Below are positions 20,836-41,370 of a DNA stretch of 47,116 nt, one piece after another. Source of the stretch: Herbinix sp. (GTDB taxonomy: Bacteria > Bacillota > Clostridia > Lachnospirales > Lachnospiraceae); the NCBI GenBank assembly GCA_029239235.1, contig JAQZBD010000015.1:1-47116 (forward strand). The letters run 5' to 3'. A program made the translations under genes and the position numbers. The notes under the pieces are model-generated. The model saw only the letters and a list, made by a program, of their open reading frames with translations, was not told the origin of the DNA and ran no database searches. The first letter of the stretch is position 1, and the number at the start of each line of letters is the position of its first letter.

Positions 20836-20895
20836 TTTATTTTATTTAATTAAATTGATTAATTATATTGTATCACGTTTTTTTTATAATATCAA
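20836..20895 (-). promoter_or_regulatory. Promoter of the sulfatase operon with downstream AT-rich operator
   Basis: On the minus strand, -35 TTGATA (20890-20895), 17-bp spacer ending in TGA, and -10 TACAAT (20867-20872), an extended -10. Immediately after the -10, TTAATTAAATTGATTAAT-type sequence (plus-strand 20836-20866) covers the likely start site. The same layout recurs at four other promoters here, implying a shared repressor. Confidence 0.7.
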
Positions 20896-20925
20896 TATGC
20901 TAAAACTTAAATCGATTTTTATCAC

Positions 20926-20974
20926 TTGTAATCTAATATTTATTCTGTTATTATTTTTATTAATTAATTTAATT
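20926..20974 (+). promoter_or_regulatory. Promoter of the creatininase-family gene with downstream AT-rich operator
   Basis: Plus-strand -35 TTGTAA (20926-20931), 17-bp spacer, -10 TATTAT (20949-20954), then TTAATTAATTTAATT at 20960-20974. That 15-mer is identical to 39560-39574 in the PGI promoter. The long open N-terminal extension of the ORF is this promoter, not protein. Confidence 0.68.
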
Positions 20975-21004
20975 ATTTTCATATTATTTATATGGAGGAT
21001 TCCT

Positions 21005-21853
21005 ATGACAACACGTATTTTGAATAAAATGAGAAATAGTGAAGTAGAAGATTATTTAAACCGTGGGCGAGATGTCATTTTTATACCTGTCGGCACTGTA
21101 GAATTACATGGTGATTTACCCCTGGATTGCGAAACGATTTATGTGGAGGCAATTGCAGAAAAGATGGCGGAAGCCACCGACAGTCTCACATTATCCGGCC
21201 TTCCTTTCTTTTATCCAGGTGCAACACGAACTGGACGCGGTACCGTATATATGAGTATCGCTGAAGGTGTTGCTTATTTAAAACACCTATCAGCAAGCTT
21301 GCTAAAACAAGGTTTTAGGAAACAGATATTCCTCTCAGGGCATGGACCAGCCTACCTTACGATTAACAGCTTTATCATGGATTCCTTTCATGAAACCATG
21401 ATTCCCTTTGTACATATTAGCCTGATTCAGGCCTTTCAGATTGCCATAGAAAATGGCTGGAAGGTAAATGGTATACCGTTTAAACAGCTTATGTACGGTG
21501 CATACAAGCAAATGAATCAGTTGGATTATCTTTATGTAGATCCTAACGCCGAACAGCAAGAAGATCCTACGGTGATTCCCTCAAGTAAGTCTTTCAATTC
21601 TATCGTTCAACGTCTGAATTCCCTCGCAACTTCTCCCGGTAATGTTGGATACCTTTTCGAACAGTTCTCAGATCATGGCGGCGGAGAAGGTAGTCGCTCT
21701 ATTGCAGAACGGGATGCTCTTGCTGCAGAAGGTGAGCAATTGATAAAAGACTTTGTCCACTTCTTCAATCCGCAGCAGGTTATTGATGATCTGGCCGAGG
21801 TCGATCGAATGACAAAGGAGCATATTCTCCCGCGTTATCCGCACCTTTCATAA
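21005..21853 (+). CDS. Creatininase-family (amidohydrolase-like) protein
   Basis: Predicted metal-dependent hydrolase of 282 aa. I start at 21005 (MTTRILNKM), which has GGAGG seven bases upstream; the in-frame sequence before it is low-complexity AT-rich promoter DNA. Family motifs: GTVELHGDLPLDCET (Glu33, His35, Asp41 as likely metal ligands), SGHGPAYL (His113) and HGGGEGSRS. The usual E-x-H-G-x-H-L-P motif is one residue shorter and lacks its second histidine. Known members hydrolyse cyclic amides (creatinine), formamides in riboflavin/F420 synthesis, or act in mycofactocin maturation. It is divergent from the sulfatase operon, shares its operator and is likely part of the same pathway; reaction unknown. 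Confidence 0.82.
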   Translation: MTTRILNKMRNSEVEDYLNRGRDVIFIPVGTVELHGDLPLDCETIYVEAIAEKMAEATDSLTLSGLPFFYPGATRTGRGTVYMSIAEGVAYLKHLSASLLKQGFRKQIFLSGHGPAYLTINSFIMDSFHETMIPFVHISLIQAFQIAIENGWKVNGIPFKQLMYGAYKQMNQLDYLYVDPNAEQQEDPTVIPSSKSFNSIVQRLNSLATSPGNVGYLFEQFSDHGGGEGSRSIAERDALAAEGEQLIKDFVHFFNPQQVIDDLAEVDRMTKEHILPRYPHLS

Positions 21854-21860
21854 TAGCTTC

Positions 21861-21909
21861 AATGCTCTCCTGTGCTATCCAAAGGTGGCCATCAAATCGG
21901 GGGAGCATT
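21861..21909 (+). terminator. Possible terminator after the creatininase-family gene
   Basis: AATGCTC-CC (21861-21870) pairs with GGGGGAGCATT (21899-21909) across a long loop, eight bases after the stop. T-rich sequence follows only about 25 bp later, so this is a weak call. Confidence 0.4.
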
Positions 21910-21999
21910 ATGCTTTCCCAGCATTCTGATTTATTTTTTATTTTTCAAGTCATGCTGAATAATCTTGTAGCCTAATAAAAGGAAAAGTTTAAGAATTGC

Positions 22000-22040
22000 T
22001 TGAAATATACTACAGTTTGTTTATAATTAATAGTAATTTA
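22000..22040 (+). promoter_or_regulatory. Promoter of the ROK regulator gene
   Basis: -35 TTGAAA (22000-22005), 16-bp spacer and a consensus -10 TATAAT (22022-22027). TAATAGTAATTTAT directly after the -10 loosely resembles the AT-rich operator of the neighbouring promoters, which would fit autoregulation. Confidence 0.5.
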
Positions 22041-22099
22041 TGTAAGCCATATAGAGCGTATGAGAATGATATATAATGTACAGAAAGGAAACTAATATT

Positions 22100-23329
22100 A
22101 TGCAAATTGCCAATGGAAATAATCTGTCGAGAGTTAAAGTTACCAACCAGTCAGCAATTCGACAGATGATTTATCACGATGGTCCAATTTCAAGAATTGA
22201 AATATCGGAAAAACTATCTCTCACACTTCCGACAATCACTACTACCGTCAATTTTCTTCTTTCAAAAGGCCTAATCAAAGAGGTCGAGAATACGAAGGCT
22301 TCCGAAAAAGCCCTTGGACGTAAGGCATCATTGATAGATATTGAGGACGATGGCGGATATTTTATAGGAATTGAGATGCGTGGTGCGCTGCGCCGTGCTT
22401 GTATCACTGATTATCGCGGAAAATCGTTAAAAACCATCGCGGATGATACCGCATACTACGACTACGATGAAGCAATTACTCAAACCTGCGAGCTAGTAAA
22501 AAAGCTATTGCGCACCAGTAAAATCCCTAAGGCTAAAATCGCAGGTATCGGTCTATGCCTACCCGGACTTGTTGACCGCAATGAGGGGATTTTAACTGTT
22601 CATCCAGGTTATGGATGGGAGAATAAAAATGTTCGTAGTGATCTATCCAGGCTGTTAAACTACAGCGGGCCAATCTCCATCGAGAATAATGCTGGCGCAC
22701 GAGCTTATGGCTCTTACTTATTTGGTCATGAACGAATGGACAATTACCAGTCTTTTGCCTATTTCTTAGTCTCAACAGGAATCGCTTGTCCTTTGATGTA
22801 TACTCATCTTAGTTTTCATGAATCCATTATTGGTCAAGGTGAGGTTGGACATATGATCATCGACTCCAGCGGGCCTGTCTGCAATTGCGGAAATCATGGC
22901 TGTTTGGAGGCCTTTTCCAGTGAACGAGCAATTATCGCTAATTGTATCGAAGCAATTCACAAGGGTCAGGCAACTATCCTAAGCCAGCTTTGCAATAATA
23001 CCGATGCTCCAACCATATATGAGATTTTACAGGCGCAATCCGAAGGTGACCAAACCATTAATACCATATTGGAAAATGCGATTTTTCATTTAGGTATCGC
23101 GATTGCAAATATTGATAATTTTGTTAAACCACAATGTATTCTAATTGACAGCCATCTTTTTCAGAGTCAGAAGAATCAGGAACAACTCATGAGTGTAATT
23201 CATAAGAATCTATATACAGCTACGAATATGGATACTGAATTCCTCTTTGTTGAGCCAAATGAATTCAGTGGTGCCGAAGGTGCCGCTGCCGTAGCTGTGC
23301 AAAATGATCTTAAAACCTTTATAGAATAA
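22100..23329 (+). CDS. ROK-family transcriptional repressor
   Basis: Sugar-responsive repressor of 409 aa. I start at the ATG at 22100 (MQIANGNNLSR) after AAAGGAAA; an earlier ATG exists eight codons upstream. An N-terminal winged helix-turn-helix (ISRIEISEKLSLTLPTITTTVNFLLSKGLI, about residues 31-60) is followed by the ROK ATPase-like sugar-binding domain with GIGLCLPGLVDRNEG, GEVGHMIID and the zinc motif CNCGNHGCLE. Such proteins (XylR, NagC, Mlc type) bind AT-rich operators and release them with a sugar ligand. It adjoins the sulfatase/creatininase divergon and is my candidate for the repressor of the shared AT-rich operator. Confidence 0.92.
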   Translation: MQIANGNNLSRVKVTNQSAIRQMIYHDGPISRIEISEKLSLTLPTITTTVNFLLSKGLIKEVENTKASEKALGRKASLIDIEDDGGYFIGIEMRGALRRACITDYRGKSLKTIADDTAYYDYDEAITQTCELVKKLLRTSKIPKAKIAGIGLCLPGLVDRNEGILTVHPGYGWENKNVRSDLSRLLNYSGPISIENNAGARAYGSYLFGHERMDNYQSFAYFLVSTGIACPLMYTHLSFHESIIGQGEVGHMIIDSSGPVCNCGNHGCLEAFSSERAIIANCIEAIHKGQATILSQLCNNTDAPTIYEILQAQSEGDQTINTILENAIFHLGIAIANIDNFVKPQCILIDSHLFQSQKNQEQLMSVIHKNLYTATNMDTEFLFVEPNEFSGAEGAAAVAVQNDLKTFIE

Positions 23330-25038: not shown

Positions 25039-26652
25039 TCATCTATCTGCCTGCAAAATTGCTAGCTGTGCTTTGATGTATGCCATTCCCTTTCCGTCAC
25101 GGATCATTTCCCATGCTTTTTCTTCGAGCTGAGCTGGACAATCCGGTTTTATCATTGCCCACATCATTCGATCGGTTAAACGTCTGTCACAATCTCGGGG
25201 AACGATGTCGCAAGTCTGCTGATACCAGTCCAATATGCATAATCTCAGCTTAGTTATCTCTTCTTCATACTTGGCATCCCCGATAACATTATTCTCTTCC
25301 AATGGATCGGATTGTAAATCATAAAATTCATGCTTTCCATTCGCTCGATGAATATATTTATAAGTATGATTACGTATCATTGTTCCTTTGCTATGAGCAT
25401 CGGCATCAAGTTGTGCTGTCTGCCTCGGCCAATACATACTGGCCTCAGGAATCTTACCCGAACTTCCAGCAGCCGGATGATATTCATCTGCCTGTGTCTC
25501 CCAAGGCATCCTCCCTCCCTCACAAAAGGCATATTCCCGCAATTCTCTGCTTCGATTCTCCAGAACAGGCCGTAAACTTCGCCCAAAGTGATCATGATCG
25601 GATTCCACATCGGCATAATCCATCACAGTTGCATAAAAATCTACCAGCTCGACCAAAGAATCCGAGATTCCTGGATCAACCATCTCAGCTTTGGGCGGTT
25701 TAACAAGGAAAGGAACCTTAGTTAGACAATCCTCAAAGGTATTTTGGGATTTCTCTGGTAAATCAAAATCACCGGCATAGTCACCATGATCACTGAGGAA
25801 GAAAATAGCACAATCCTCATAAATTCCCGCTTTTTTCAGTGCATCACACAGGCGTTTGAATTGAACATCCACCTTCATGCACATTCCTAAATAGCAGGCA
25901 CGTAACTCATCCCAGTCCTGCTCGGTATAAGCGTCCATCCCCATCAGACGCTTCAAGTCTGCTTCCATCTGAGGCTTTCCCTTTCCGGCAAAAGCCCTCC
26001 TGGGAAGCTTCTTCCGATCGATGGCAGAAAAATATGGTTCTTCCACTGCATATGGAGTGTGCGGATACATTAGCCCTAAGAACATACACAGCGGACGATC
26101 ATCCACGGGATGGAGAATGCGGTCAATTGCCGCATCCACAATGCCATCATCAGCAGAATAATGCTTATTACTCTCATCCAATGACAACCTGCCTTCATAA
26201 TGAGAGTAATAATTTTTATCCCCAGGCTGCCCGCGAAACTCTCTATTTTCCGGACCAGGTGATTTGGGGCAATCTTCACCATAATAGATCTCGGTTGCGT
26301 GTGCTTCCATCAATCCGGGTATCTGTCCAGCAACTAAATCATTACGCGTATTCATCCAAACATAGTATCCTGCATCCTTTAATTCCGAAAAAAGACTCGA
26401 CTCATGGCTCCGTAACAAATGCTGCATCGTCCGATGGCCATTGACATGAGGGTACAAACCGGTAAAAAAACTGCATCGGCTGGGTACACACACCGTATTT
26501 TGGCAATAAGCATTCCGAAATGAGACAGCCTCTAGCCTGGAGAACTCATCCAGAAACGGTGTCTGTGCAGCAGGATTTTGCCCCAGATTGGCAAGGCAAT
26601 CGGAGCGCATCTCATCCGGATTAAAAATTATAATATGAGGTTTTTTACCCAT
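25039..26652 (-). CDS. Type I sulfatase (formylglycine-dependent), cytoplasmic
   Basis: Second sulfatase, 537 aa. The CVPSR motif at Cys55-Arg59, within CVPSRCSFFTGLYPHVNGHR, is the formylglycine site. N-terminal NPDEMRSD supplies metal-binding acidic residues and FFLSDHGDYAGDF the second metal motif. It lacks a signal peptide, like the first sulfatase, and the two are only distantly related, so they probably remove sulfate from different positions or linkages. It lies 88 bp after the GH3 gene on the same strand, suggesting the pair act in sequence on one oligosaccharide. The C-terminal region YDLQSDPLEENNVIGD is typical of the family. Confidence 0.93.
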   Translation of the reverse strand: MGKKPHIIIFNPDEMRSDCLANLGQNPAAQTPFLDEFSRLEAVSFRNAYCQNTVCVPSRCSFFTGLYPHVNGHRTMQHLLRSHESSLFSELKDAGYYVWMNTRNDLVAGQIPGLMEAHATEIYYGEDCPKSPGPENREFRGQPGDKNYYSHYEGRLSLDESNKHYSADDGIVDAAIDRILHPVDDRPLCMFLGLMYPHTPYAVEEPYFSAIDRKKLPRRAFAGKGKPQMEADLKRLMGMDAYTEQDWDELRACYLGMCMKVDVQFKRLCDALKKAGIYEDCAIFFLSDHGDYAGDFDLPEKSQNTFEDCLTKVPFLVKPPKAEMVDPGISDSLVELVDFYATVMDYADVESDHDHFGRSLRPVLENRSRELREYAFCEGGRMPWETQADEYHPAAGSSGKIPEASMYWPRQTAQLDADAHSKGTMIRNHTYKYIHRANGKHEFYDLQSDPLEENNVIGDAKYEEEITKLRLCILDWYQQTCDIVPRDCDRRLTDRMMWAMIKPDCPAQLEEKAWEMIRDGKGMAYIKAQLAILQADR

Positions 26653-26740: not shown

Positions 26741-29176
26741 TTAACGTAACTCGGTAGGGCAAACGTAGGAACGTCTGCCCATTACATTCGTTGACTTTCC
26801 AATTAGGCATATACTTTGGCTTAGCATTATATCGCGGGAATTAGTTCCTAGCATCAGGTTCATCGTCCCTGGCTCAACTACAAATTCTATAAACTCATTG
26901 TAATAGCCCAGCTGCGCCATATCCAAATGGAACACTACTGTCTTCTCCTCACCTGGCTGCAGAGTTATTCGACGGAAACCAGTTAGCTGTTTATTTGGAC
27001 GGGTAACATGCGCCTCCGTGAAACTAGTATATAGCTGAACCGTCTCATCTCCGGTCACATTTCCGGTATTTTTCACCTTGCAGCTGATTTCTAATTTACC
27101 ATCGGTCGGAAGCTCAGTTGCAGATACCAGCATATCTGCGAGTTCAAACGTGGTATAACTGAGTCCATGACCAAAGCAGTAGAGCGGATCAGCCGGACCA
27201 TCCACATAACCACCTGAGAAGATACTTGCCGCAGCGGTATCAGCTCCGCTGTTGTAACCTGATCCAACACGGTGATTATAATAAATTGGAATCTGTCCTG
27301 TATTTCTTGGCACAGACATGGTCATCTTTCCTCCCGGATTAACCGTTCCATCAAGCGCATCAGCTATGACTTTTCCAGCAAAAGGGCCTGGCATAAATGC
27401 CTGCAAAATTGCTCCGCAGTTTTCCTGCGCCCAGTTAACCGCAAATACACCTGGTCCATAGAGCACCAATACAATTGGTTTTCCTACCGCTGCAACTGCT
27501 TCCAGCAACTGCTGCTGTACTCCCGGCAAATCAAGATATTGTCGATCCTTACCCTCACCTCCGGTTACATTGATCCAGCCAGAGTTTCCACCACATGCCA
27601 TTACAACTACATCAGACTGCTGCGCTGCAACCACTGCTTGTGCAAAACCATCGGTTTCCTTGCCCATGATGCTGCACCCCTGTGCATAGGATACCAGAAA
27701 GCGCTCAGCAAGAACTTCCCTTAAAGAACGAGTTCCCATTTCCTTCAGAACCGTATTCATATCATTCATAGCATCCTGCTCTTCCTTTGAGAACATTTCA
27801 AACATTGCAGCAAAAGGCCCATTAACTTTCTTTCCCCCACTTTTTGCTTTTTCCTGCTCATCAGCTAAACCGTTAAAACCGGTCGTTTCTCCGTTGGCTC
27901 CAGCCTTCATCATTTCTATGTATGCCGGATAGGTGTATCCACTTACCGGGTAACGCAGTGAATCAGCATGAGGTCCGACCAGTGCCACCTTCATTTCCTT
28001 TTTTAAAGGAAGGATATCTTCATTCTTTAAGAGAACTAGAGATTTGGCAGCGATTTTCTCACTTAAGGCTCTTTTTTCGGCATTATTCAAGGCTTCAAGT
28101 ACTTTTGCCTCATCACAATAAGGGTTCTCAAACAGACCACGCTTGAACTTTACTGTCAGCACTCGACGCACGGATTCATTGATGCATTCCTCCTCCAACT
28201 CGCCAGAACGAACGTATTTCGGTAATTGACGGAAAGCAGCTCCAACCGGTATCTCCGTATCAGTACCGGCTTTTTTAGCCAGGAGTCCAGCCTCCTCGTA
28301 GGTTTTTGCAATTTTAAAGTAATTTAATGTCTTTAAGACAGCTGCACCATCAGACGTCAGTACACCCTTGAAGCCCATGGTATCTCGTAATAATGTTCCT
28401 ATAATTTCTTTGTTATCAATCACAGGAAGACCATCAATCTCTCCATAGTTAGCCATCATGGCATCCAGTCCTGCTAATTTATCTGCTGCTTCAAAAGGAG
28501 TTGCAAATATCTCATAGAGCTCTCGCTTGCCCATACGACACGCCGATGTATTCAGACCACCTTGTGTTGATGAATATCCCAAGAAATGTTTCGCTATACA
28601 GCTGACCCCCTGCTCCTGCATTCCTTTCACATAGTGATTACCGAATTGACTGATCAGATATGGATCCTCTCCAAACGTTTCGTAGGTTCGGCCCCAACGG
28701 GGATCTTGTACTACATCTATTACCGGACTCATGGCAGAAGTGATACCTACACTGCGACTCTCCTCCCCAATGATTTTACTCATTTTCTCTGCAAGCTCTG
28801 GTTCCCAGGTACATCCCATATTTATCATCGCCGGGAACAAAGTACCACCGGCGGCCGGATATCCACAAAGATTTTCTGTCTGCAATGCAACTGGGATTCC
28901 AAGTCTAGTTTCCTCAACAAAGTAACGTTGAACCGTGTTACTGATCTTGGCAATCTGTTCAGGATTTACAAGTCCAACAATCGAATACTGAGTAAAGCGT
29001 CCATGTCCGTCTGGAAATTTCTCTTTTAACAGCTCTGTGTTGACTTTTCCCTCTTCAATAAAGGAAGCCGGTAAATCACCGCACAACTGTGCAACTTTTT
29101 CTTCCAGCGTCATCCTTGAAAGCAAATCCTCTACTCTTGCTTCTATCGGCTGTTTCGGATCTTTGTACAATTCCAT
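26741..29176 (-). CDS. Glycoside hydrolase family 3 beta-glycosidase, cytoplasmic
   Basis: Retaining exo-glycosidase of 811 aa. I start at 29176 (MELYKDPKQP) with GGAGG eight bases upstream. Domains in order: (beta/alpha)8 barrel to about residue 370 with KHFLGYSSTQGG and the nucleophile Asp276 in GVLTSDGAAVL; the alpha/beta sandwich from about 390; and a C-terminal fibronectin III-like domain (LEISCKVKNTGNVTGDETVQLY). No signal peptide, so it cleaves imported sugar. GH3 enzymes of this architecture remove beta-glucose, xylose or related residues. A sulfatase follows 88 bp later, and its promoter shares the AT-rich operator. Which sugar it removes is not clear from sequence. Confidence 0.94.
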   Translation of the reverse strand: MELYKDPKQPIEARVEDLLSRMTLEEKVAQLCGDLPASFIEEGKVNTELLKEKFPDGHGRFTQYSIVGLVNPEQIAKISNTVQRYFVEETRLGIPVALQTENLCGYPAAGGTLFPAMINMGCTWEPELAEKMSKIIGEESRSVGITSAMSPVIDVVQDPRWGRTYETFGEDPYLISQFGNHYVKGMQEQGVSCIAKHFLGYSSTQGGLNTSACRMGKRELYEIFATPFEAADKLAGLDAMMANYGEIDGLPVIDNKEIIGTLLRDTMGFKGVLTSDGAAVLKTLNYFKIAKTYEEAGLLAKKAGTDTEIPVGAAFRQLPKYVRSGELEEECINESVRRVLTVKFKRGLFENPYCDEAKVLEALNNAEKRALSEKIAAKSLVLLKNEDILPLKKEMKVALVGPHADSLRYPVSGYTYPAYIEMMKAGANGETTGFNGLADEQEKAKSGGKKVNGPFAAMFEMFSKEEQDAMNDMNTVLKEMGTRSLREVLAERFLVSYAQGCSIMGKETDGFAQAVVAAQQSDVVVMACGGNSGWINVTGGEGKDRQYLDLPGVQQQLLEAVAAVGKPIVLVLYGPGVFAVNWAQENCGAILQAFMPGPFAGKVIADALDGTVNPGGKMTMSVPRNTGQIPIYYNHRVGSGYNSGADTAAASIFSGGYVDGPADPLYCFGHGLSYTTFELADMLVSATELPTDGKLEISCKVKNTGNVTGDETVQLYTSFTEAHVTRPNKQLTGFRRITLQPGEEKTVVFHLDMAQLGYYNEFIEFVVEPGTMNLMLGTNSRDIMLSQSICLIGKSTNVMGRRSYVCPTELR

Positions 29177-29260
29177 ATCAAATACCTCCATTTATATTTT
29201 TATCTTTGCATTCTGCATTTCTTCCTAAGACAAAGATTATTATCCTTAAATCCAGGATAA

Positions 29261-29313
29261 TATATTAATTAATTATTTTAATTTATTATATACCAAAGAA
29301 ATGAATCACACAA
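29261..29313 (-). promoter_or_regulatory. Promoter of the GH3-sulfatase operon with downstream AT-rich operator
   Basis: Minus-strand -35 TTGTGT (29308-29313), 17-bp spacer, consensus -10 TATAAT (29285-29290), then a TTAATTAATT-containing element (plus strand 29261-29284) immediately downstream. Same layout as the sulfatase, creatininase, chrA and PGI promoters. Confidence 0.7.
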
Positions 29314-29401: not shown

Positions 29402-30526
29402 TTATTTTTTATTAAGTCTTATATTTGAGCTTGCCTGAACCATGCTATCATAACACGCTTCAAAAAATAGATAATAGCCTTCACATAAATAATTCTCGTA
29501 CAAGTTTGTATCCGCATTCAAATCCCGATTTCTCTGGCAACCACCTTTGCATATAGGAAAGTATTTACACTCTTTGCATTCTTTTGATAATAGCAAGGAA
29601 CGTTCTATAAATTGAATCTCCCTGCTCTTTTCATAAATTTCATCTAATTGGTTGTAATTAAAATTACCAAGTCTATATTCATCCAGCATATAAAAATCAC
29701 AAGGATACACACTTCCATCTGCCTCTACTACATTCTGGATGCCGCAGACACCATTCTGATCACAGCATTCTGCGCGGTATCCCAATAATATAGCAAGGTA
29801 ATTTTCAAATTGTCTTATATATGGCTGTTTTCCTGCTTGAAGATCACTATACCATAGAAGAAACAGCTTTATTAGAAAACTTCCGTATTCCTTTGGTGTC
29901 AGCGCATACTCCTTTTTGCCGCGCTCCTCTTCCAATGGTTCCAGACACGCAATATACTGCTGGTAATTCCAGTTCCTTGCTTTATAATCCTGATAGATTT
30001 GTTCTATATTTTCTGCTGTTTTTTTATTAACTACCGTTAAAATATTGTACTCAACCTCATACTGATCCATTAGCTTCGTGGCGTGTACTATTTTTTCATA
30101 GGTTCCCGCCCCCGTCTTATCATGACGATACGCATTATGAGTCTCCTGAACCCCATCAATTGACACGCCTATCAGAAACTGATGATCGTGAAAGAACTTG
30201 CACCACTCTTCATTGATTGCATATCCATTCGTTTGTAACGCATTCGTTACTTTGATGTTGTTCTTATTATATTTTGACTGATAATATAGCACCTTTTCAA
30301 AAAATTCAATTCCGCGCAAGGTTGGCTCTCCACCCTGAAAAGCATAACTGATATGGCCTTCCGCTCTTAGGATCGTCTTTCTGATTACATTCTTTAACGT
30401 TTCTTCCGACATAAAACCATATGACTTCTGCAACCGTTTATTCGCTTCATCGCAGTAAAAGCAATAGTCACATTCCATATTGCACAGTCCTGATGCTGGT
30501 TTTATTAATACATTGATTGGGGGCAT
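29402..30526 (-). CDS. Anaerobic sulfatase-maturating radical SAM enzyme (anSME)
   Basis: Radical S-adenosylmethionine enzyme of 374 aa that oxidises the active-site cysteine of sulfatases to formylglycine. The SAM cluster motif is CNMECDYC (cysteines 15, 19 and 22), followed by QGGEPTLRG. A SPASM C-terminal domain with auxiliary-cluster cysteines is visible in CCDQNGVCG, GSVYPCDF and ECKECKYFPICKGGCQRNRD. AAAGGAG precedes the start. It follows the ChrA-like transporter by 35 bp. Both sulfatases in the window have the C-x-P-x-R motif this enzyme uses. Its co-regulation with them is indicated by the operator at 32020-32080. Confidence 0.95.
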   Translation of the reverse strand: MPPINVLIKPASGLCNMECDYCFYCDEANKRLQKSYGFMSEETLKNVIRKTILRAEGHISYAFQGGEPTLRGIEFFEKVLYYQSKYNKNNIKVTNALQTNGYAINEEWCKFFHDHQFLIGVSIDGVQETHNAYRHDKTGAGTYEKIVHATKLMDQYEVEYNILTVVNKKTAENIEQIYQDYKARNWNYQQYIACLEPLEEERGKKEYALTPKEYGSFLIKLFLLWYSDLQAGKQPYIRQFENYLAILLGYRAECCDQNGVCGIQNVVEADGSVYPCDFYMLDEYRLGNFNYNQLDEIYEKSREIQFIERSLLLSKECKECKYFPICKGGCQRNRDLNADTNLYENYLCEGYYLFFEACYDSMVQASSNIRLNKK

Positions 30527-30561: not shown

Positions 30562-32004
30562 CTAAATTATATTACATATTGTCAAAGATGCAACCCCTGA
30601 TATTATAATTAGGATCACGTCATGTAAATGAAACTTTTTATGTAGGAGGTATAGTACTCCGAATATTCCTGTACAGATCAGTAACGCTGCTGTTCTTGAC
30701 ATATTCTGTTCCAGAATGATCTTAAAATTTTCAGTCATCATTGATACAATTGTACTTAACAGTAAACCACATACGATGGGCAAAATCCATTTCTTTAAAG
30801 TCTTAAAGATATCAAGGCTTTCAAAACAATTATATACATAATTTATGAAAAAGAAAACTCCACAGGAAGCTGCGAGACTCGCTGCATAACCTCCAATCGC
30901 TAATAAATAGCCTGTTGCTACGCTTTCTGTGGCATTAAAGCCTATGATATAACCGATTCCTGCTAAAACTTTACTAAGTATCGGTCCCGGAAGAGCATTA
31001 GCAACCGGAAGGATCTGACCATAGAAAATCTCTGAGGAAATAGTACCAGCCGATACAAACATACTATCCGCTATCGTTAGATACGCTTCTCCACCACCGA
31101 AGGAGATTACAGAAGAAAGCAGACCATTTCCCAGATATCCAAATACTCCTTGTATCGCAATCACTGCTGGGATTGAACAAATTAGAAATAATACGGCCCA
31201 TACCACTAATTCCGAAACTAGTCCACTGACAGGGATCTTCTTCATTTTTCCACTCTTTTTAATGCTTCTGTATACACTATAGCAAGTGAAAAGTAACATG
31301 ATTAACTTTATGATATCAAATATTATTACATTTGATATGATCTGTGATTTACCCGTACACAGAATGAAAATAATACTTATGACTCCGATTACACTTGCTT
31401 TCATGTACGTAATTTTACCGCTGCATGAAAAAATTATGAAAAAGGAAAGCAGAAGGATGTTAATTGTTGAAATATCAAAGATCGGTGTCATGTCAATTTC
31501 AAAAATACTATAGATCTCTTTCCCCGCTGTCAGAAAAAAAACAAGGAGCATAATCATCCAACTTGGAGATAATATATTGGACTCTTTACAACCTTTGAAA
31601 ACTTTATTAATATAATTTACCAGCAACAATATGATAAAAATTGAAATACCGATTGAGGCATATTTAATTTGCTCTAATACATGATCATTTAATTGGGACA
31701 TAATTGAAATCATGACAACTGTTATGGCCACTCCAGGAAGTGATACCATGATCGCTGCTCCAATCATACCAGGAATACCACTAACCTTTCGCCCTGCAGC
31801 TGCTGCCAGCTTCACCGGTAATGTTCCCGGCGTTATGTTGGCTACAATAACATGATCATTATAATCGTTTTCCTTTAATAGCTTCTTATTTGCTACTACC
31901 TCTTCCTCCACAATTGGGATCAATGCACTGCCACCACCAAAACCGATAAAACCGATTTTTAAAAATGACAGTAATAAAGATATTAACTTCTTCATTTGGT
32001 TCAC
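30562..32004 (-). CDS. ChrA-like chromate/anion transporter (two-domain CHR family)
   Basis: Polytopic membrane protein of 480 aa with two homologous CHR halves; the FIGFGGGSALIPIVEEEVV motif in the first half (about 18-36) is echoed by SFGGGEAYLTIADSMFV in the second, and the PGP-like motif by ITPGTLPVKLAAAAGRK and ALPGPILSKVLAGIGY. Characterised CHR proteins move chromate and are inhibited by sulfate, its structural analogue. Here the gene is co-transcribed with the sulfatase maturase and shares the sulfatase regulon operator, so I infer that it exports the sulfate released by the cytoplasmic sulfatases. Chromate resistance would be an unlikely reason for this location. Confidence 0.85.
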   Translation of the reverse strand: MNQMKKLISLLLSFLKIGFIGFGGGSALIPIVEEEVVANKKLLKENDYNDHVIVANITPGTLPVKLAAAAGRKVSGIPGMIGAAIMVSLPGVAITVVMISIMSQLNDHVLEQIKYASIGISIFIILLLVNYINKVFKGCKESNILSPSWMIMLLVFFLTAGKEIYSIFEIDMTPIFDISTINILLLSFFIIFSCSGKITYMKASVIGVISIIFILCTGKSQIISNVIIFDIIKLIMLLFTCYSVYRSIKKSGKMKKIPVSGLVSELVVWAVLFLICSIPAVIAIQGVFGYLGNGLLSSVISFGGGEAYLTIADSMFVSAGTISSEIFYGQILPVANALPGPILSKVLAGIGYIIGFNATESVATGYLLAIGGYAASLAASCGVFFFINYVYNCFESLDIFKTLKKWILPIVCGLLLSTIVSMMTENFKIILEQNMSRTAALLICTGIFGVLYLLHKKFHLHDVILIIISGVASLTICNII

Positions 32005-32019: not shown

Positions 32020-32080
32020 GTTATTATTAATTACAAAATTAATTTAATTTAATAATAACAGTTGCCAATAAGTAAAACAA
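32020..32080 (-). promoter_or_regulatory. Promoter of the chrA-maturase operon with overlapping AT-rich operator
   Basis: Minus-strand -35 TTGTTT (32075-32080), 17-bp spacer and -10 TATTAT (32052-32057). The plus-strand 18-mer at 32037-32054 is identical to 39562-39579 in the PGI promoter. A perfect 11-bp inverted repeat GTTATTATTAA / TTAATAATAAC (32020-32030, 32049-32059) brackets the element. Confidence 0.72.
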
Positions 32081-32673: not shown

Positions 32674-32693
32674 TATAAGAATACCCCAAAAAA

Positions 32694-32829: not shown

Positions 32830-33601
32830 TTACATTACGTCAATTTCATGCAATCTGCAACAGGTTACAAAATGTCCAGGGGACACTTCTTCTTGTTTTT
32901 GCTGCTGACTGCATACTTCTTTCGCATAAGGACAACGAGCTGCAAAACGACAACCTTGCTTTGGATTGATTGGGGATGTTATTTCACCACGCAAAATCTC
33001 TCGTTTACTTGGTTTATCAATATCTGTAGATGGAATCGCTGAAAGCAGAGCTCTGAATTGATACATCAAGAGCAGATACCGGCTCATCACAAACCACAAA
33101 TTTAGGTTCCAGCGCTAATGCTCGTGCGATACCTACTCTCTGTCGGCGTCCGCCGTCCAATTCATGTGGATATGCTTTTCGAAGTCTCTCATCGATACCA
33201 ACCAAATCCATTAATTCCTGCGTTTTTTGCTCGATTTCGCTTTTTGAAAACCGTTTTGATACTATCAGAGGTTCCCTGATTGTATAATCGATGGTTTTAC
33301 GAGGATCAAGTGAGGAATAGGGATCCTGGAAAATAATCTGCATTTTCTCGCGTGCCTGACGTAAATTCTTACCCTTCAAATTGGTTACATCTTGTCCATC
33401 CAGCAAAATCTGACCCTCAGTGCTCTCATGCAGATGAATGATGGTTCTTCCAAGAGTGGATTTTCCACAGCCAGATTCTCCTACAACTCCAAGGGTACGT
33501 CCCTTTTCAATCGTGAATGTAACATCATCCACTGCATGTAACATACCACGAGGTGTTGTAAAATATTTTTTTAAACCTTTTACTTCAATGACCGGCTTCA
33601 T
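32830..33601 (-). pseudogene. Opp-type ABC transporter ATPase (OppF/DppF-like) with internal deletion and frameshift
   Basis: The last gene of the importer operon is disrupted. From the ATG at 33601 the first 183 residues are normal: Walker A (GESGCGKST), signature LDGGRRQR and Walker B with VVCDEPVSALDVSIQ. The frame then goes out and stops at 33017. The normal C-terminus continues in another frame from ALLSAIPSTD with the cysteine tail CRFAARCPYAKEVC to a stop at 32830. Roughly 70 residues usually found between these points, holding the switch histidine and D-loop partner, are absent. The junction (about 33050-33056) has a CAG that could belong to either side. Either a real deletion, leaving the importer dependent on another ATPase, or an assembly error. 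Confidence 0.82.
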
Positions 33602-34609
33602 TTAATCCTCCCCTTTTTTAACGGCAGCAATACGGCAGCAACGGCAGTCATGGCCATCCTCTGTTTTATACATACTAATTGATTCCTTACAACATGCATC
33701 AGTCACAAATTTGCATCTTGGAGCAAAAGAGCATCCCTGAGGCAAATCAGTCGGATCCGGTGGCAGTCCCTCAATCGGATGCAGCCATTCTTCATCCTCA
33801 TTCATATCAGGTATTGCACCAAACAAACCAATGGTATACGGGTGGGAAGGATGTCTGAATATCTGCTCCTTTGAACCGTATTCTATAATATTTCCAGCGT
33901 AAATAACAGCAACATTATCGCATACTTGTGCAACAACACCCATATCATGGGTAATCAATAGCATTGCTGTATTATATTTATTTCTCAATTCTGCAATTAA
34001 ATCAAGTACCTGAGCCTGAATGGTCACATCCAACGCAGTAGTTGGTTCATCGGCTAGCAAGAGATCCGGATTACAAGCGAGTGCAATCGCGATGACTACT
34101 CTCTGTTTCATTCCGCCGGAAAACTGATGCGGATATGCATAATAACGTTCCGCAGGAATACCTACTATCTCCAGCATCTCTTTCGCTCTTTTTTCATGCT
34201 CGGCAGAGTTGTTACTATCACTATGCAAACGCACTACTTCAGCAATTTGATCACCTACACGCAGTACAGGATTTAACGCTGTCATAGGATCCTGAAAAAT
34301 CATGGATACTTTATTACCACGGATCTTTCTCATTTCAGTTTCCGGTAACTTCAAAAGATTTTCTCCATCGAGATGGATTTCTCCATTAACAATGCGGCTG
34401 CCCACATCCGGCAGAATTCGTAGTATCGATTTCGCGATGGTTGTTTTACCAGCTCCAGTCTCACCAACAAGTCCAAGTGTCTTACCTCGTTCCAACTGAA
34501 GGCTTACATCATTTACGGCATGAACGATCTGTCCATCCGATTTATATTCCACCCTTAAATCCTTTATTGAAAGGAACGGCATATTTGTATTTATATCTTT
34601 TTTAGACAC
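33602..34609 (-). CDS. Opp-type ABC transporter ATPase (OppD/DppD-like)
   Basis: Intact ATPase of 335 aa. It starts at a GTG (34609) with AAGGAGGAG seven bases upstream. Motifs: Walker A (GETGAGKTT), signature FSGGMKQR, Walker B (LLLADEPTTALDVT), switch histidine LLITHDMGVVA and the C-terminal Opp cysteine cluster (CSFAPRCKFVTDACC). It would power the importer with its paired ATPase, the gene immediately downstream, which is broken; this one may have to work as a homodimer or with a partner from elsewhere. The downstream ATG directly abuts its stop, and its tail carries the next gene's ribosome site. Confidence 0.92.
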   Translation of the reverse strand: MSKKDINTNMPFLSIKDLRVEYKSDGQIVHAVNDVSLQLERGKTLGLVGETGAGKTTIAKSILRILPDVGSRIVNGEIHLDGENLLKLPETEMRKIRGNKVSMIFQDPMTALNPVLRVGDQIAEVVRLHSDSNNSAEHEKRAKEMLEIVGIPAERYYAYPHQFSGGMKQRVVIAIALACNPDLLLADEPTTALDVTIQAQVLDLIAELRNKYNTAMLLITHDMGVVAQVCDNVAVIYAGNIIEYGSKEQIFRHPSHPYTIGLFGAIPDMNEDEEWLHPIEGLPPDPTDLPQGCSFAPRCKFVTDACCKESISMYKTEDGHDCRCCRIAAVKKGED

Positions 34610-34624
34610 AGCAGCTCCTCCTTC

Positions 34625-35494
34625 CTAATTCTTCAACTTGGGATCAAGGGCATCTCTTAAGCCATCTCCCAATAAATTCAATGCAAGTACTGTTACGGCA
34701 ATGGCCAAACCCGGAAAATAAACCAGATGTGGTGCCTGACGAATAAACTGACGGGCAGCGGACAACATAGCTCCCCATTCAGGAGTAGGCGGCTGAACAC
34801 CCAGACCAATGAAACTTAAACCCGCTGCAACAGTGATGGTCTGAGCCACACCCATGGTTGCAGATACAATCATTGGCGAAATACAGTTAGGAAGCAGATG
34901 GCTTACGATAATGCGGAATTTGCTGCAGTTGATGGATTGCGCAGCTTCTATGTATTCATTCTCGCGTTCCTTTAACATCTGTGCTCGAAGCAATCTTGCC
35001 ATACCGGAGATACTTCCTATGGACAGAGCAATAATTGTATTAAAATATCCCGGTCCAAGTACGGCGGAAATAACAATCATTAGCAGCATTCCCGGAATCG
35101 CCTGAATGACATCCAAGAAACGCATAATAACATTGTCCACCTGACCACCAAAATAACCGGCAGTTGCACCAATAGTACATCCAAAAAACGTACCGATACC
35201 AACAGCGATAATACCGATGGAAATGGAATATCTGGCACCATAAAGGATACGGCTGAAAATATCTCTTCCCATATCATCACATCCAAAAGGATGTTGAAAG
35301 GACGGTTTTGCAAAGGTATTTACCATATCCATATGAGAATAATCATAGGGTATAATATAGGGTGATAATATAGCTAGTATAATCTCAGCTGAAAGAATTG
35401 CCAGACCTAACATCGCCATCTTATTCTTGCTCATTTGCTTAATAATGCGAACGAATTCGCTCTGCTTTTTGGCTTTTTCGATTGTCTTAGGCAT
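34625..35494 (-). CDS. ABC transporter permease (OppC/DppC-like)
   Basis: Membrane permease of 289 aa overlapping the end of the OppB-like gene by 8 bp. The N-terminal cytoplasmic region is followed by a helix (about 31-50), the HPFGCDDMGRDIFSRILYGARYS motif and five further hydrophobic segments; the EAA loop reads ENEYIEAAQSINCSKFRIIVSHLLPN. It pairs with the OppB-like subunit to form the translocation path. Together with the solute-binding lipoprotein it probably imports the sulfated oligosaccharide, since the operon begins with phosphoglucose isomerase and shares the sulfatase operator. Oligopeptide uptake is the alternative family function. Confidence 0.92.
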   Translation of the reverse strand: MPKTIEKAKKQSEFVRIIKQMSKNKMAMLGLAILSAEIILAILSPYIIPYDYSHMDMVNTFAKPSFQHPFGCDDMGRDIFSRILYGARYSISIGIIAVGIGTFFGCTIGATAGYFGGQVDNVIMRFLDVIQAIPGMLLMIVISAVLGPGYFNTIIALSIGSISGMARLLRAQMLKERENEYIEAAQSINCSKFRIIVSHLLPNCISPMIVSATMGVAQTITVAAGLSFIGLGVQPPTPEWGAMLSAARQFIRQAPHLVYFPGLAIAVTVLALNLLGDGLRDALDPKLKN

Positions 35495-36464
35495 TTACTT
35501 TCACCTTCCTTCTCTTCTTTTGCGATGCATATTGAGCTTTGATTCTTGGATCCACCATCGCATAAAGTAAATCAACAATTAGCATACAAAAACTAAACGT
35601 AATAGCGAGGAAGATTGATCCGCCTTGTACAATCGGATAATCACGGCTGTTTACCGCACCAATAATATAAGTTCCCATACCAGGAATTGAGAAAATGGTC
35701 TCTATGATCATAGCTCCGCCCAGAAACTGTCCAAACATCGTTCCCATTACTGTAATAATCGGAATTAAGCTATTTTTTAAGGCATGTTTAATAATTACGT
35801 CACGTTCCGGCACACCTTTGGAACGAGCAGTTGTGATATAGTCCGCACGAATTACATCAAGCATCGCGGAACGGGTCTGTCTTGCACAGTTTGCCAAACC
35901 ACCGGTACTTCCGGAAATAGCTGGAAGAATATAATATTTAATTCCTGCCAGTCCAGTTCCGATTCCCAAAGCAGGCAGCCATTCCAGTTTTACAGAAAAC
36001 TGTAAAACTAATAACAGAGCTAGCCAAAAGTTTGGAACTGCTACACCAACGAGTGCTAGCACCATGCACAAGGAATCCTGCCATTTATTCTGTTTGATTG
36101 CTGCAATTACACCCAACGGAACTCCAACACCAACGGATATCAGCAAGGTTGCAACAGTCAGCATTAAAGTCCTGGGAAGACGTTCCCAGATCGAGCTCAT
36201 GATATCCACATTGGTAAGCCAAGACTTCCCAAGGTCAAAATGAATAAATACATCACTCATATATCGACCCAGACGGATTAAAAACGGATCATCCAATCCT
36301 AATTCCAGGCGTTTTGCCGCAAGCTCTGCTTCTGTTGCGGTGGCACCAAGGATAATTTGCTCCGGTCTACCGGGACAAAAGGTCATCATGACAAATACCA
36401 GAATCGCAACCCCCAGAACGATGGGAATCATCCATATTAATCGTTTCCCTACATATTTTAACAT
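35487..36464 (-). CDS. ABC transporter permease (OppB/DppB-like)
   Basis: Membrane permease of 325 aa. N-terminal MLKYVGKRLIWMIPIVLGVAILVFVMM is the typical first helix of DppB/OppB, followed by a periplasmic loop with the PGRPEQIILG region, several helices, the loop DYITTARSKGVPERDVIIKHALKNS and the conserved FSIPGMGTYIIGAVNSRDYP. It lies about 100 bp after the binding lipoprotein and overlaps the next permease by 8 bp, indicating translational coupling. The basic tail AQYASQKKRRKVKVNA is cytoplasmic. Substrate class inferred from operon neighbours, not from this subunit. Confidence 0.92.
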   Translation of the reverse strand: MLKYVGKRLIWMIPIVLGVAILVFVMMTFCPGRPEQIILGATATEAELAAKRLELGLDDPFLIRLGRYMSDVFIHFDLGKSWLTNVDIMSSIWERLPRTLMLTVATLLISVGVGVPLGVIAAIKQNKWQDSLCMVLALVGVAVPNFWLALLLVLQFSVKLEWLPALGIGTGLAGIKYYILPAISGSTGGLANCARQTRSAMLDVIRADYITTARSKGVPERDVIIKHALKNSLIPIITVMGTMFGQFLGGAMIIETIFSIPGMGTYIIGAVNSRDYPIVQGGSIFLAITFSFCMLIVDLLYAMVDPRIKAQYASQKKRRKVKVNA

Positions 36465-36562
36465 ATATTAATCTCCATTGAAGCCAGTTGGTGCACAGAA
36501 AATCAATATTCCTGCGCACCACAGCTTAGAATTATTATAAGACTGTCTTGTTTCCTTTAATA

Positions 36563-38179
36563 TTAGTAATTAGTAAATTTACTGGATGCAGGAGCGATAT
36601 AACCCTGATACTCTAATACTTCTTCTTCCAAACCAGCATCTTTTCGTATAACAACAATGGTCTGAGGATTAAACATACCATAGGCAATTGCGTTATCCTT
36701 GATATAATTATGAACTTCGTCAATATTTGCTTCTGTGAATCCACTTGGTGTCCAAGTCTTATATAGAAGCTCTCCAAGGGTATTATCATGACGGCTTGTC
36801 GCGTCACCTGTTTTATATGCAGCCGGGTCATAACGAATTGACCAATGGTCTGGCAGATAAGTACCGCCGATTGAATTTAAAACGATATCATATTGTGTAC
36901 CATCCAGACGAATTGAGGTATATAATGCCATGTCCACGACATTTAATTCTACCTTAACTCCAATTGCCATCATATAACTTTGTAGCATTTCTGCTAATCT
37001 CTGTGTCAATGTAGTGCTGGTTGTCAGAATGCTGATTGTCTCACCATTATAGCCGGATTCTGCAATTAACTGCTTTGCCTTTTCTACATTGTAGTTGTAA
37101 TACTCTTCGTTCACCCACTTCTCATTAAATCCATTAAACATCGGCGGGCAAACGTCATACATCGGAGTACCGTAGCCTTGCAACAAACCAGCAATCAGAC
37201 CATTTTCATCAATACTATAGCAGATTGCCTGGCGAAGCTTTAAATTATTTGCAACTTCACTGTTGTCAGCTCCGGAGAAAAACATTTGCCATCCCTGTGA
37301 GCCTTCTGCTAATTCAACGGTATAATCATTGTTATCTACGAACTGTGCAACGGAGGAAGCATCCAACGCTATTACCATATCTACGATACCGGTTTCCAAT
37401 GCAATTGCCATTTGGGAAGACTCTGTGATACAGTGGTAGCTAAGTTTCTTCACAGCTGGTACGACGCATTTTGGAAGATTTGCTTCATCCTGCCAGTAGT
37501 CATCCCTCTTTTCAAGAGCTAAAATGGAATTTGTAGTATATTCTGTTACCTTGTACGCTGAGGTGGAGACTAATGTTGCACCAAACTCATCTGTACTTGC
37601 TTCAAAAGCAGTTTTGGAAATTGCAAAAGTATCTCTTAAAAGGGATTCAAAGGTACCAACAATATTAGATTTCATCTTAACTGTCAGCGTATAGTCTCCA
37701 GTCTGTTCAACACTTTCAACCTTTGAAAATACAGGCTTTAGTGCTCTTGTCATGGATTCTTGAATGAACCAAACAATATCTGCTGCTGTAATTTTATTAC
37801 CTTCGGAATCGGTTACTTTATCCCAAATTTCAACGTTATAAGTAAAACCGTCATCATTAGTTTCCCAAGATTTTGCTACCCAAGGTTCCATTTCTCTGTT
37901 CTCATTAACCACTGCCAGTGATTCAAACACCTGAGTTATAAATGGAGCATTTCTTAGCGTATTACCACGGAATGGGGTTAAACTTTCTAACATAGATGTA
38001 TAACCTATGTCCAATACTCCATCATTTTTCGCAGTACTATCACTACCGCTCGTATCAGTTGTAGAACTGCTATCAGTAGAACCTGAATTTCCAGATTTGC
38101 CACTGCAACCTGTAAGCATGGAAGCTGTCATAACTACGGCCAAGCCGAGAGCTAAAATCTGTTTAAAACTTTTTTTCAT
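36563..38179 (-). CDS. Extracellular solute-binding lipoprotein (SBP family 5)
   Basis: Surface lipoprotein of 538 aa. The start at 38179 (MKKSFKQILALG) is chosen because AAGGAGG lies seven bases upstream, inside the apparent N-terminal extension. Signal peptide with lipobox LTGC (cysteine about 24), then a long Ser/Thr/Gly linker. The body has family-5 features including WDKVTDSEGNKITAADIVWF, LRQAICYSIDENGLI and YNVEKAKQLIAESGYNG. Family members bind peptides, nickel chelates or oligosaccharides such as cellobiose. Because the operon begins with a sugar-phosphate isomerase and shares the sulfatase operator, I favour a sulfated oligosaccharide ligand. Confidence 0.92.
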   Translation of the reverse strand: MKKSFKQILALGLAVVMTASMLTGCSGKSGNSGSTDSSSTTDTSGSDSTAKNDGVLDIGYTSMLESLTPFRGNTLRNAPFITQVFESLAVVNENREMEPWVAKSWETNDDGFTYNVEIWDKVTDSEGNKITAADIVWFIQESMTRALKPVFSKVESVEQTGDYTLTVKMKSNIVGTFESLLRDTFAISKTAFEASTDEFGATLVSTSAYKVTEYTTNSILALEKRDDYWQDEANLPKCVVPAVKKLSYHCITESSQMAIALETGIVDMVIALDASSVAQFVDNNDYTVELAEGSQGWQMFFSGADNSEVANNLKLRQAICYSIDENGLIAGLLQGYGTPMYDVCPPMFNGFNEKWVNEEYYNYNVEKAKQLIAESGYNGETISILTTSTTLTQRLAEMLQSYMMAIGVKVELNVVDMALYTSIRLDGTQYDIVLNSIGGTYLPDHWSIRYDPAAYKTGDATSRHDNTLGELLYKTWTPSGFTEANIDEVHNYIKDNAIAYGMFNPQTIVVIRKDAGLEEEVLEYQGYIAPASSKFTNY

Positions 38180-38208
38180 AATCAAATCCTCCTTCATTTC
38201 GTTTAAAT

Positions 38209-38241
38209 ATTATTTCAAGCGTATTATTTACGCCAAATAAT
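38209..38241 (-). promoter_or_regulatory. Intra-operon stem-loop upstream of the binding-protein gene
   Basis: Two-part dyad: ATTATTT / AAATAAT outside and GCGTA / TACGC inside around a TTATT loop. It lies between the PGI stop (38257) and the lipoprotein start (38179). No T-tract follows on the coding strand; it may stabilise the lipoprotein mRNA or mark a processing site. Confidence 0.55.
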
Positions 38242-38256
38242 CAATGCTCATATTTC

Positions 38257-39525
38257 TTACTCATATTTCCCTAATGCCTCAAACATGTACTGTTTATAGG
38301 CTTCCACTCCTGGCTGATCAAAGGGATTAACCCCAAGAATCTTCGCAGATAAGTAGCAAACAAACTCAAAAAAGTAGAATAACTGTCCAAAGGATTCCTC
38401 ATCCATTGTTGGCACAGTAAGCTTAACGCAAGGGAACTTTTTACTATGAGCCGTTAATGTTGCTTCAAATGCAGCACGATTAATTTCATCAAAATCCTTA
38501 CCATTTAAATAATCAAAGCGGTCATCCACATCATCATTATGTAACACATAAGAAGCGCCGGATTCTTGAACGTCCAGAAAAGTTTCAAAAATAACATTTG
38601 ATCCATCCTGTAAAAATTGACCTATTGAGTGCAAGTCTTCGGAAAAGTTACCAAACAGCGGATACAACCCTTTATTGTCTTTCCCTTCACTTTCTCCAAA
38701 TAGTTGCATCCACCACTTCGCAAAACGGAAATACCTTGGTTCAAAGTAAGAAAGCATCTCCATGCGAAACCCTTTTTGATACAACTGATTTCTTACAACT
38801 GCATATTTTAAAGCGATATTCTCAGAAGCTTTCTCCGTATGCAATCTCTGACGCATATGTTTTGCACCAGCAGCGATCGCATTAATGTTCATTCCTGCCA
38901 CTGCCATAGGGAACAGTCCCACTGGAGAAAGAGCTGTAAATCGTCCACCGATATTATCCGGAAAAGGTAAGAAGCGAAATCCATTCTCTTTACATAGTTC
39001 GTCCAGATGGCTCTCCTGTGTACCTGTGCAAATGACACGTTCTGCATAACTATCGCCATATACTTCTTTCAAGAAACTGCGAAGAGCACGAAATCCGATG
39101 CCCGGCTCTAGAGTTTCAAAATTCTTTGCAATTACATTTATGTAGACACTCTTTCCTTCAATCTCTTTTAAAACATCACATATACTATCTGCAGAAATGT
39201 TATTACCTGCCCATACAATACGAACGGAGCTTGCTTCACCAATTGCATCTACAACTGCACGCGCTGCCTGATTGGATCCACCGATCCCAATAACTACCAG
39301 CACATCTGCCTTCTCTTGCACTTCCTTTGCTAATTCCTGATAGGTAGCGAGCCATTTGTCTCCTGCCCATTCATCCACGTCCAGCCAGCCAAGACTATCA
39401 CTATATTGTTCTTCACCGTACTTTACCAGATCCAAGAAGGGAGCATTCTCTTCCATTCCCATAGCAACTTCTTCCATCTCAAGCCATGACGAGCTGTCGA
39501 CTAACTGTATACCTAAATCTTCCAT
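38257..39525 (-). CDS. pgi: Glucose-6-phosphate isomerase
   Basis: Phosphoglucose isomerase of 422 aa, slightly shorter than the usual 445-450 aa of Firmicutes, the difference being at the N-terminus. It converts glucose 6-phosphate and fructose 6-phosphate. Signature 1 is DNIGGRFTALSPVGLFP; the active-site region KWWMQLFGESEGKDNKGLYP carries the catalytic glutamate; DLHSIGQ and the C-terminal signature NPFDQPGVEAYK are present. All catalytic regions look intact. It heads the importer operon and shares the sulfatase operator, so it is likely a pathway-dedicated copy acting on the sugar phosphate released from the imported substrate. It may alternatively be the only pgi of the organism. Confidence 0.92.
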   Translation of the reverse strand: MEDLGIQLVDSSSWLEMEEVAMGMEENAPFLDLVKYGEEQYSDSLGWLDVDEWAGDKWLATYQELAKEVQEKADVLVVIGIGGSNQAARAVVDAIGEASSVRIVWAGNNISADSICDVLKEIEGKSVYINVIAKNFETLEPGIGFRALRSFLKEVYGDSYAERVICTGTQESHLDELCKENGFRFLPFPDNIGGRFTALSPVGLFPMAVAGMNINAIAAGAKHMRQRLHTEKASENIALKYAVVRNQLYQKGFRMEMLSYFEPRYFRFAKWWMQLFGESEGKDNKGLYPLFGNFSEDLHSIGQFLQDGSNVIFETFLDVQESGASYVLHNDDVDDRFDYLNGKDFDEINRAAFEATLTAHSKKFPCVKLTVPTMDEESFGQLFYFFEFVCYLSAKILGVNPFDQPGVEAYKQYMFEALGKYE

Positions 39526-39556
39526 GCTTTCACCTCTGAACTTCTTAACAAAACAT

Positions 39557-39613
39557 TATTTAATTAATTTAATTTAATATAGTAATATTACTGTAATTCT
39601 AGGTATTATTCAA
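39557..39613 (-). promoter_or_regulatory. Promoter of the pgi-importer operon with downstream AT-rich operator
   Basis: Minus-strand -35 TTGAAT (39608-39613), 17-bp spacer, -10 TAATAT (39585-39590), then the AT-rich element (plus strand 39557-39580). It contains a 15-mer shared with the creatininase promoter and an 18-mer shared with the chrA promoter, making it the best match between sites. Confidence 0.72.
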
Positions 39614-41368: not shown

Positions 41369-41370
41369 CT

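Follow-up and report, generated by a model that had tools for sequence, protein, structure and literature searches.

The question raised by this locus is which regulator, if any, reads an AT-rich element that recurs at five promoters of a gene cluster for sulfatases, a glycosidase and an Opp-type importer in Herbinix sp. The stretch of DNA analysed here (the window, 47,116 nucleotides) makes up a complete contig (C41) in a draft genome of 4.97 Mb. An earlier interpretation of its letters (the sequence-only reading) had proposed that the five promoters form a sulfated-sugar regulon bound by a ROK protein from within the cluster. We find that the common element is a 17-bp palindrome, TTAATTAA-W-TTAATTAA, nearly all A and T, with informative flanks reaching approximately 25 bp, and we consider it probable (about 0.82) that its five copies are operators of the ROK-family repressor predicted from the frame at 22076-23329.

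Five Promoters with a Common Palindrome

The five candidate operators, with the genes they would serve, their scores against the matrix described below and their promoters, are as follows:

20846..20862, minus strand: operator 1, sulfatase (19324-20814) operon; TTAATTAAATTGATTAA; score 27.7; -35 TTGATA at 20890-20895, 17 bp, -10 TACAAT at 20867-20872
20960..20976, plus strand: operator 2, creatininase-like gene (21005-21853); TTAATTAATTTAATTAT; score 22.5; -35 TTGTAA at 20926-20931, 17 bp, -10 TATTAT at 20949-20954
29269..29285, minus strand: operator 3, GH3 gene (26741-29191) and sulfatase gene (25039-26652); score 27.2; TTGTGT-17-TATAAT
32035..32055, minus strand: operator 4, chrA-like gene (30562-32004) and anaerobic sulfatase maturase (anSME) gene (29402-30526); score 20.2; TTGTTT-17-TATTAT
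39560..39576, minus strand: operator 5, PGI-like gene (38257-39525) and Opp-type importer genes (33017-38197); score 30.2; TTGAAT-17-TAATAT

The sequence-only reading had described a TTGNNN hexamer, exactly 17 bp and a TANNAT hexamer at each promoter, with the element on the -10 box or directly following it. Both descriptions hold at all five, the operator core starting between -1 and +8 bp relative to where the -10 box ends. Equally real are the two identities between sites that it had reported, a 15-mer common to 20960 and 39560 and an 18-mer common to 32037 and 39562. When other spacings were scanned at the window sites, nine spacers between 13 and 22 bp gave a single match, at 22 bp, and simple shuffling of the upstream 60 bp, repeated 2000 times, gave the layout in at most two of the five promoters (a level reached in 2 shuffles). 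Operator 4, which is divergent from the frame at 32185, has the lowest score of the five.

Matrix Scans and Chance Controls

The main matrix was built from 19 sites, all from other genomes and none from the window's own, and includes two shifted reverse copies. It ranks the five operators above everything else in the window (in the order 39560, 20846, 29269, 20960 and 32035), with the sixth place at 10.7. A second matrix of 13 sites, without the shifted copies and without four Lacrimispora sites, puts the same five on top, the next scoring 11.5. None of 500 column-permuted matrices yielded five sites (maximum 3). When the intergenic DNA was dinucleotide-shuffled 500 times, five sites again never appeared (maximum 1), and shuffling the five promoter stretches alone gave a mean of 0.017 sites. 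That AT-richness is insufficient to explain the element, as had been claimed, is thus sustained by the cross-species matrix, the permuted matrices and the shuffles alike.

Elsewhere in the same genome, no place in 325,182 bp read as 20 stretches (some of them chosen for pattern matches) scored 16 or more with the 19-site matrix, and the top off-window score in the scored stretches was 19.7 (L193); unrelated promoters, in the stretches scored, do not match the matrix equally well. Counting mismatches to hand-made patterns is a weak test, and the patterns were written after the window sites were known: 7 of 8 matches (at four promoters), 8 of 19 and 8 of 43 fell in this contig, and reversed control patterns gave 9, 19 and 50 matches genome-wide against 8, 19 and 43 for the real ones.

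Conservation in Relatives

With the ROK protein as query, a contig scan found no relative, a search within the genus at 1e-60 found, besides the window's own protein, only G023 (40% identity) and one genome of the same order (31%), for a total of 3 of 99 genomes, and a plasmid search returned only matches under 60% identity. Because ROK orthologues are so few in the genus, conservation was examined in Lacrimispora and others, where relatives sought by the PGI-like protein across genome contigs gave 45 related loci.

In the Lacrimispora-type loci, where the PGI-like relatives have 78-80% identity, the PGI promoter retains its -35 box, 17-bp spacing, -10 box and operator in 7/7, with spacer and leader diverged. 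Operator 1 is also conserved in Lacrimispora, and operator 2 is aligned with a degenerate copy at the same place. The gap upstream of GH3 holds a site scoring 19.1-24.5, and the 17-bp promoter there faces the divergent gene of a 162-aa protein rather than GH3. G099 and G103, as well as G101 when read across two contigs, have the gene order PGI-Opp-orf162-GH3-sulfatase-ROK-creatininase, facing sulfatase-FBA-TIM-LarA-KHK; in the window, by comparison, maturase and ChrA genes interrupt this order, and TIM-LarA flanks PGI on the opposite side. A related palindrome, ATTTAATTCATTTAATTCAAA, occurs in the same form outside the cluster in these three Lacrimispora genomes, G099 (C76:38162), G101 (C24:123979) and G103 (C13:38356), and may be the operator of another regulator.

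Beyond Lacrimispora, [Clostridium] sp. MCC353 (G112) has operators at five places of one region, the gap between ROK and PGI included, with scores of 26.3-31.9, and Hungatella, Enterocloster and other Clostridia have one to three sites each. Loci of 42-52% GC hold the element, and two at about 60% GC hold a weaker version of it. Across 35 site rows from 24 loci, TTGNNN-17-TANNAT stands beside the operator in 29 (14/14 in Lacrimispora, 15/21 in others), and each other spacer from 14 to 20 bp occurs 0 times or once. This count takes all sites of approximately 18 or more and partly repeats near-identical loci; an earlier, smaller set had omitted L077:4362, which is without the layout. Conservation in related genomes, which the sequence-only reading had named as a check on its proposal, is therefore found in Lacrimispora and in other relatives. 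Of the outcomes that would have refuted that proposal, neither equal scores at unrelated promoters nor a lack of conservation was seen.

The ROK Protein as Candidate Binder

ROK-family repressors combine an N-terminal winged helix-turn-helix with a ROK domain, and the window's protein matches both profiles (listed below). ROK proteins also carry a zinc motif, CxCGxxGCxE, and kinases of this kind a DxGxT motif. The window's ROK translation has the former as CNCGNHGCLE, and the latter is not visible in it, which suggests that the protein is probably a sensor rather than a kinase. A palindromic element at the promoters of linked, apparently sugar-related genes is, moreover, what would be expected of a ROK repressor.

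The protein and the element tend to occur together, with related ROK genes inside or close to the corresponding clusters of other species. Fourteen of the 45 PGI loci have a site of at least 18, and 13 of those 14 genomes have the ROK protein at 1e-75, G106 being the exception; among the 31 PGI loci without a site it was found for six (G109, the second PGI of G112, G122, G129, G133 and G138, at 1e-75 or 1e-70). These genome-level counts supersede a flank-only two-by-two test (6, 1, 8, 30; P 0.002), because in G099, G101 and G103 the ROK gene lies outside the fetched flank. Sites of at least 20 lie near 9 of 17 ROK genes of this group as opposed to 1 of 23 paralogs (L026 of G081 is excluded, and no ROK frame of 150 aa was found in L098), and sites of at least 18 number 23 across the ROK-cluster contexts (362,388 bp, training sites included) vs. 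3 across the paralog contexts (332,963 bp). Of four genomes that contributed nothing to the matrix, three have sites: intergenic ones of 30.7, 28.4 and 26.9 in G122, one of 19.4 upstream of the FBA homolog in G129 (60% GC), and one of 17.9 directly upstream of the ROK start in G138.

The recognition helix separates the same group. A PT[IV]T signature, PTITT in the window, is present in 15/15 ROK proteins of the group and in 0/18 paralogs, a count that omits 5 short kinase-like paralogs of 23 (L165-L167, L185, L186) and 5 near-identical Lacrimispora proteins (L093, L095-L098), and that includes G109 and G081, in neither of which an operator of at least 18 was found (the scoring of G081 covered a short flank). 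The helix stretch in the window, LTLPTITTTVNFLL, contains no Arg or Lys, and the linker has GRK; two relatives (G112b and G113b) have a Lys right after PTVTT. In XylR, an Arg reads a G-C pair and a Lys the adjacent T-A pair, and Arg/Gly-rich ROK linkers read the minor groove (PMC9104551, excerpt). A helix without Arg or Lys, combined with a GRK linker, would fit an operator that is nearly all A and T.

The sequence-only reading had named the ROK protein as the likely binder, and co-occurrence, the common helix and the different operator of the LacI protein (see below) favor that view; we regard it as the best candidate for the binder of all five elements.

Proposed Mechanism and Alternative Explanations

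The position of the operator on the -10 and start region points to repression through blocking of the polymerase. Without inducer, a ROK dimer would occupy the operator and exclude RNA polymerase from the five transcription units, and a sugar of the pathway, bound in the kinase-like domain, would release the protein from the operator. In C. bescii, XylR sites that overlap promoters or 5′ untranslated regions have been read as repressor sites (PMC8579813, excerpt). The same position, and the same reading of the C. bescii sites, tell against an activating or mixed role for a ROK protein bound to the element: ROK proteins can either activate or repress (PMC9599254, excerpt), but a protein bound over or against the -10 box should block polymerase, and we consider this reading improbable.

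The cluster also includes a LacI-family protein (7908-8954), and two sites of a second type:

7699..7722, unstranded: LacI-type operator CAAACGTTTG, upstream of the LacI gene (7908-8954); separate regulon
42350..42373, unstranded: LacI-type operator CAAACGTTTG, upstream of the TIM-LarA genes (39872-42213)

The view that the A/T element is bound by this protein, or by a different regulator in the cluster, draws on the fact that a LacI homolog is present in 8/11 genomes tested, in five of them (G023, G099, G103, G107 and G111) within the stretches read around the cluster. It is very unlikely nonetheless, and LacI was rejected as binder. The LacI genes of the window and of five relatives are preceded by a conserved palindrome of their own, CAAACGTTTG, and a search at 1e-60 found no LacI in G101 or G110, both of which have the operator and the ROK protein. 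Operators of the LacI/CcpA type are expected to be palindromes with a central CG, and the centre of the A/T element is instead A/T. The core of the LacI-type site, AAACGTTT, lies at 7707 and 42358 in the window, and also before FBA in G099 and G103 and before the gene ahead of TIM in G111; the TIM-LarA operon of the window has this site and no A/T site of the ROK type. The placement of LacI-type sites before LacI itself and TIM-LarA, together with the failure to find LacI in G101 and G110, suggests that two repressors share the cluster, and the ROK and LacI proteins probably divide it between them. The least probable of the alternatives is that the element is mere AT-rich promoter DNA (UP-like, a discriminator or easily melted) with no dedicated binder. 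The element is indeed nearly all A/T and its promoter stretches are 78-86% A/T, but those same stretches almost never regenerate it when shuffled, it persists in the loci of higher GC described above, and it follows one ROK group; AT-richness or chance was rejected on the shuffles, the permuted matrices and the cross-species training.

Several observations weigh against the ROK protein as repressor of all five units. The sequence-only reading had placed a looser copy of the element at the ROK gene's own promoter, and this was not borne out: the best score in 21854-22075 is 2.0, compared to 20.2-30.2 for the five sites, so that no good operator stands there in the window. In the relatives, the promoter layout is missing from 6/35 site rows. 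The G122 cluster is gene-for-gene like that of the training genome G112, and its sites are consequently not independent; the two independent scores from non-training genomes, 19.4 and 17.9, are near control level. G133 (66% GC), the fourth of the non-training genomes, has the ROK protein with no site found, and G109 (57% GC) has a ROK protein of 41% identity and a PGI homolog with no site above 13.5. Conversely, the metagenome draft G106 has a perfect operator before PGI and a best ROK match of only 25% identity, and a distant ROK paralog (23% identity) in G112 has an A/T palindrome scoring 20.8 approximately 220 bp from its gene (L205:9098). Lastly, the chrA site is near the best off-window score of its own genome, and of 16 unscored off-window pattern places, one has an upper bound of 20.3, near the chrA score. 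This site is borderline, and rests also on its promoter layout and the 18-mer in common with the PGI site; the other four stand clear.

Gene Content and Scope of the Proposed Regulon

The genes of the cluster, with the profile matches that support their annotation, are:

19324..20814, minus strand: sulfatase 1 (Pfam PF00884, 1.9e-38)
21005..21853, plus strand: creatininase-like hydrolase, weakly IolN-like (PF02633, 1.6e-17; NF041098, 49 bits, below cutoff)
22076..23329, plus strand: ROK-family regulator, proposed binder (Pfam ROK PF00480, 4.9e-36; HTH_24, 4e-05); alignable start in homologs at approximately 22100
25039..26652, minus strand: sulfatase 2 (PF00884, 7.4e-33)
26741..29191, minus strand: GH3 glycosidase (PF00933, PF01915)
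29402..30526, minus strand: anSME, radical-SAM (TIGR03942, 392.7 bits, above cutoff)
30562..32004, minus strand: ChrA-type transporter (PF02417, 1.1e-36)
33017..39525, minus strand: PGI-like isomerase and Opp-type ABC importer genes (PF00342, PF00496, PF00528, PF00005)

All genes of this list apart from that of the ROK regulator would accordingly fall into the five units and under one type of operator, which suggests that a single repressor may switch the uptake and breakdown of a sugar, probably a sulfated one. Among the targets in G107, G112 and G122 are, in addition, Gfo/Idh and AP-endonuclease-like enzymes, and none of the genes under the operators in those Hungatella and Enterocloster loci that were examined is labelled like the window's sulfatases. 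The designation of a sulfated-sugar regulon is therefore too narrow for some relatives, in which the link to sulfatases is not constant, and "sugar (often sulfated) regulon" is the safer name.

The LarA homolog of the LacI-type operon (39872-41368) is very close to Blautia wexlerae LarA (PDB 9q3j, 1042 bits), of a subfamily without the second catalytic His. The Blautia protein is assigned to a His-to-Asn subfamily of unknown substrate with glycolysis-like neighbours (PMC12611868, excerpt). In Lacrimispora, LarA belongs to the run of genes that follows the sulfatase operator.

Other features of the window were also noted. The 162-aa protein at 32185-32673 is without a Pfam match, is kept in the Lacrimispora-type loci and G112 at 46-70% identity, and is predicted to fold as two N-terminal helices followed by a strand-rich domain (mean pLDDT 79). 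The OppF-like frame at 33017-33601 has 194 aa vs. 320 aa in Lacrimispora and is possibly shortened. An inverted repeat at 11437-11470, with 15-bp arms GTTACATAAAACTGA...TCAGTTTTATGTAAC, lies between two catabolic genes as a possible terminator or operator, and a brief TTCTC tandem run (44396-44425) lies upstream of an ABC transporter gene (42453-44198).

Wider Implications

If correct, the assignment would give a carbohydrate cluster of gut and anaerobic Clostridia, cultured Lacrimispora included, a repressor and an operator that can be tested as a pair, and an operator composed almost purely of A and T would lend itself well to studying how ROK proteins select their targets. Several poorly understood genes, for a PGI-like isomerase, a ketohexokinase-like protein and the LarA of the His-to-Asn subfamily, are linked by the cluster to those for sulfatases and GH3, and this should make the sugar easier to find. 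More tentatively, and at somewhat less than even odds, a Clostridia-wide ROK group might read the nearly all-A/T 17-bp palindrome through its PT[IV]T helix, largely by DNA shape and an Arg/Lys linker, and share the cluster such that ROK governs release and uptake and LacI the lower-pathway genes, including the orphan nickel-pincer LarA subfamily. Were this true, the regulon would point to the substrate of that subfamily.

Comparison with Known Systems

Among the papers listed in searches of an open-access library, no title or opening of an abstract described this motif or regulon, and the available parts of PMC5171806 and PMC3750489 contain no such motif. The nearest analogies are with other ROK systems. 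XylR of Bacillus and of Clostridium group 1 likewise has an N-terminal helix-turn-helix and inverted-repeat operators at sugar-gene promoters, and the Clostridium group-1 motif is itself AT-rich; the window element, however, matches neither of the XylR operators given in excerpts of the literature, GTTT-N7-AAAC (PMC9104551) and the Clostridium group-1 consensus ACTTattAAAnnnnnTTTaaAAAgt (PMC2873477). Lmo0178 of Listeria (PDB 5f7p/5f7q/5f7r), which regulates alpha-glucan decomposition (PMC9104551, excerpt), is among the closest solved relatives of the window's ROK protein by sequence (96.5 bits), but its aligned recognition helix, STLTYIL, is without PT[IV]T. NagC and Mlc are the best NCBIfam matches, though the protein scores 152.2 and 120.5 bits, respectively, far under the cutoffs of 650 and 530 for these families. 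Bifidobacterial NagR offers a parallel in organization, a single ROK repressor that acts on several gene clusters via a palindrome (PMC9599254, excerpt), but its regulon concerns other sugars (human milk oligosaccharides and N-acetylglucosamine). Set against these, a local ROK sugar regulon is an ordinary type of system, and it is the operator that is unusual.

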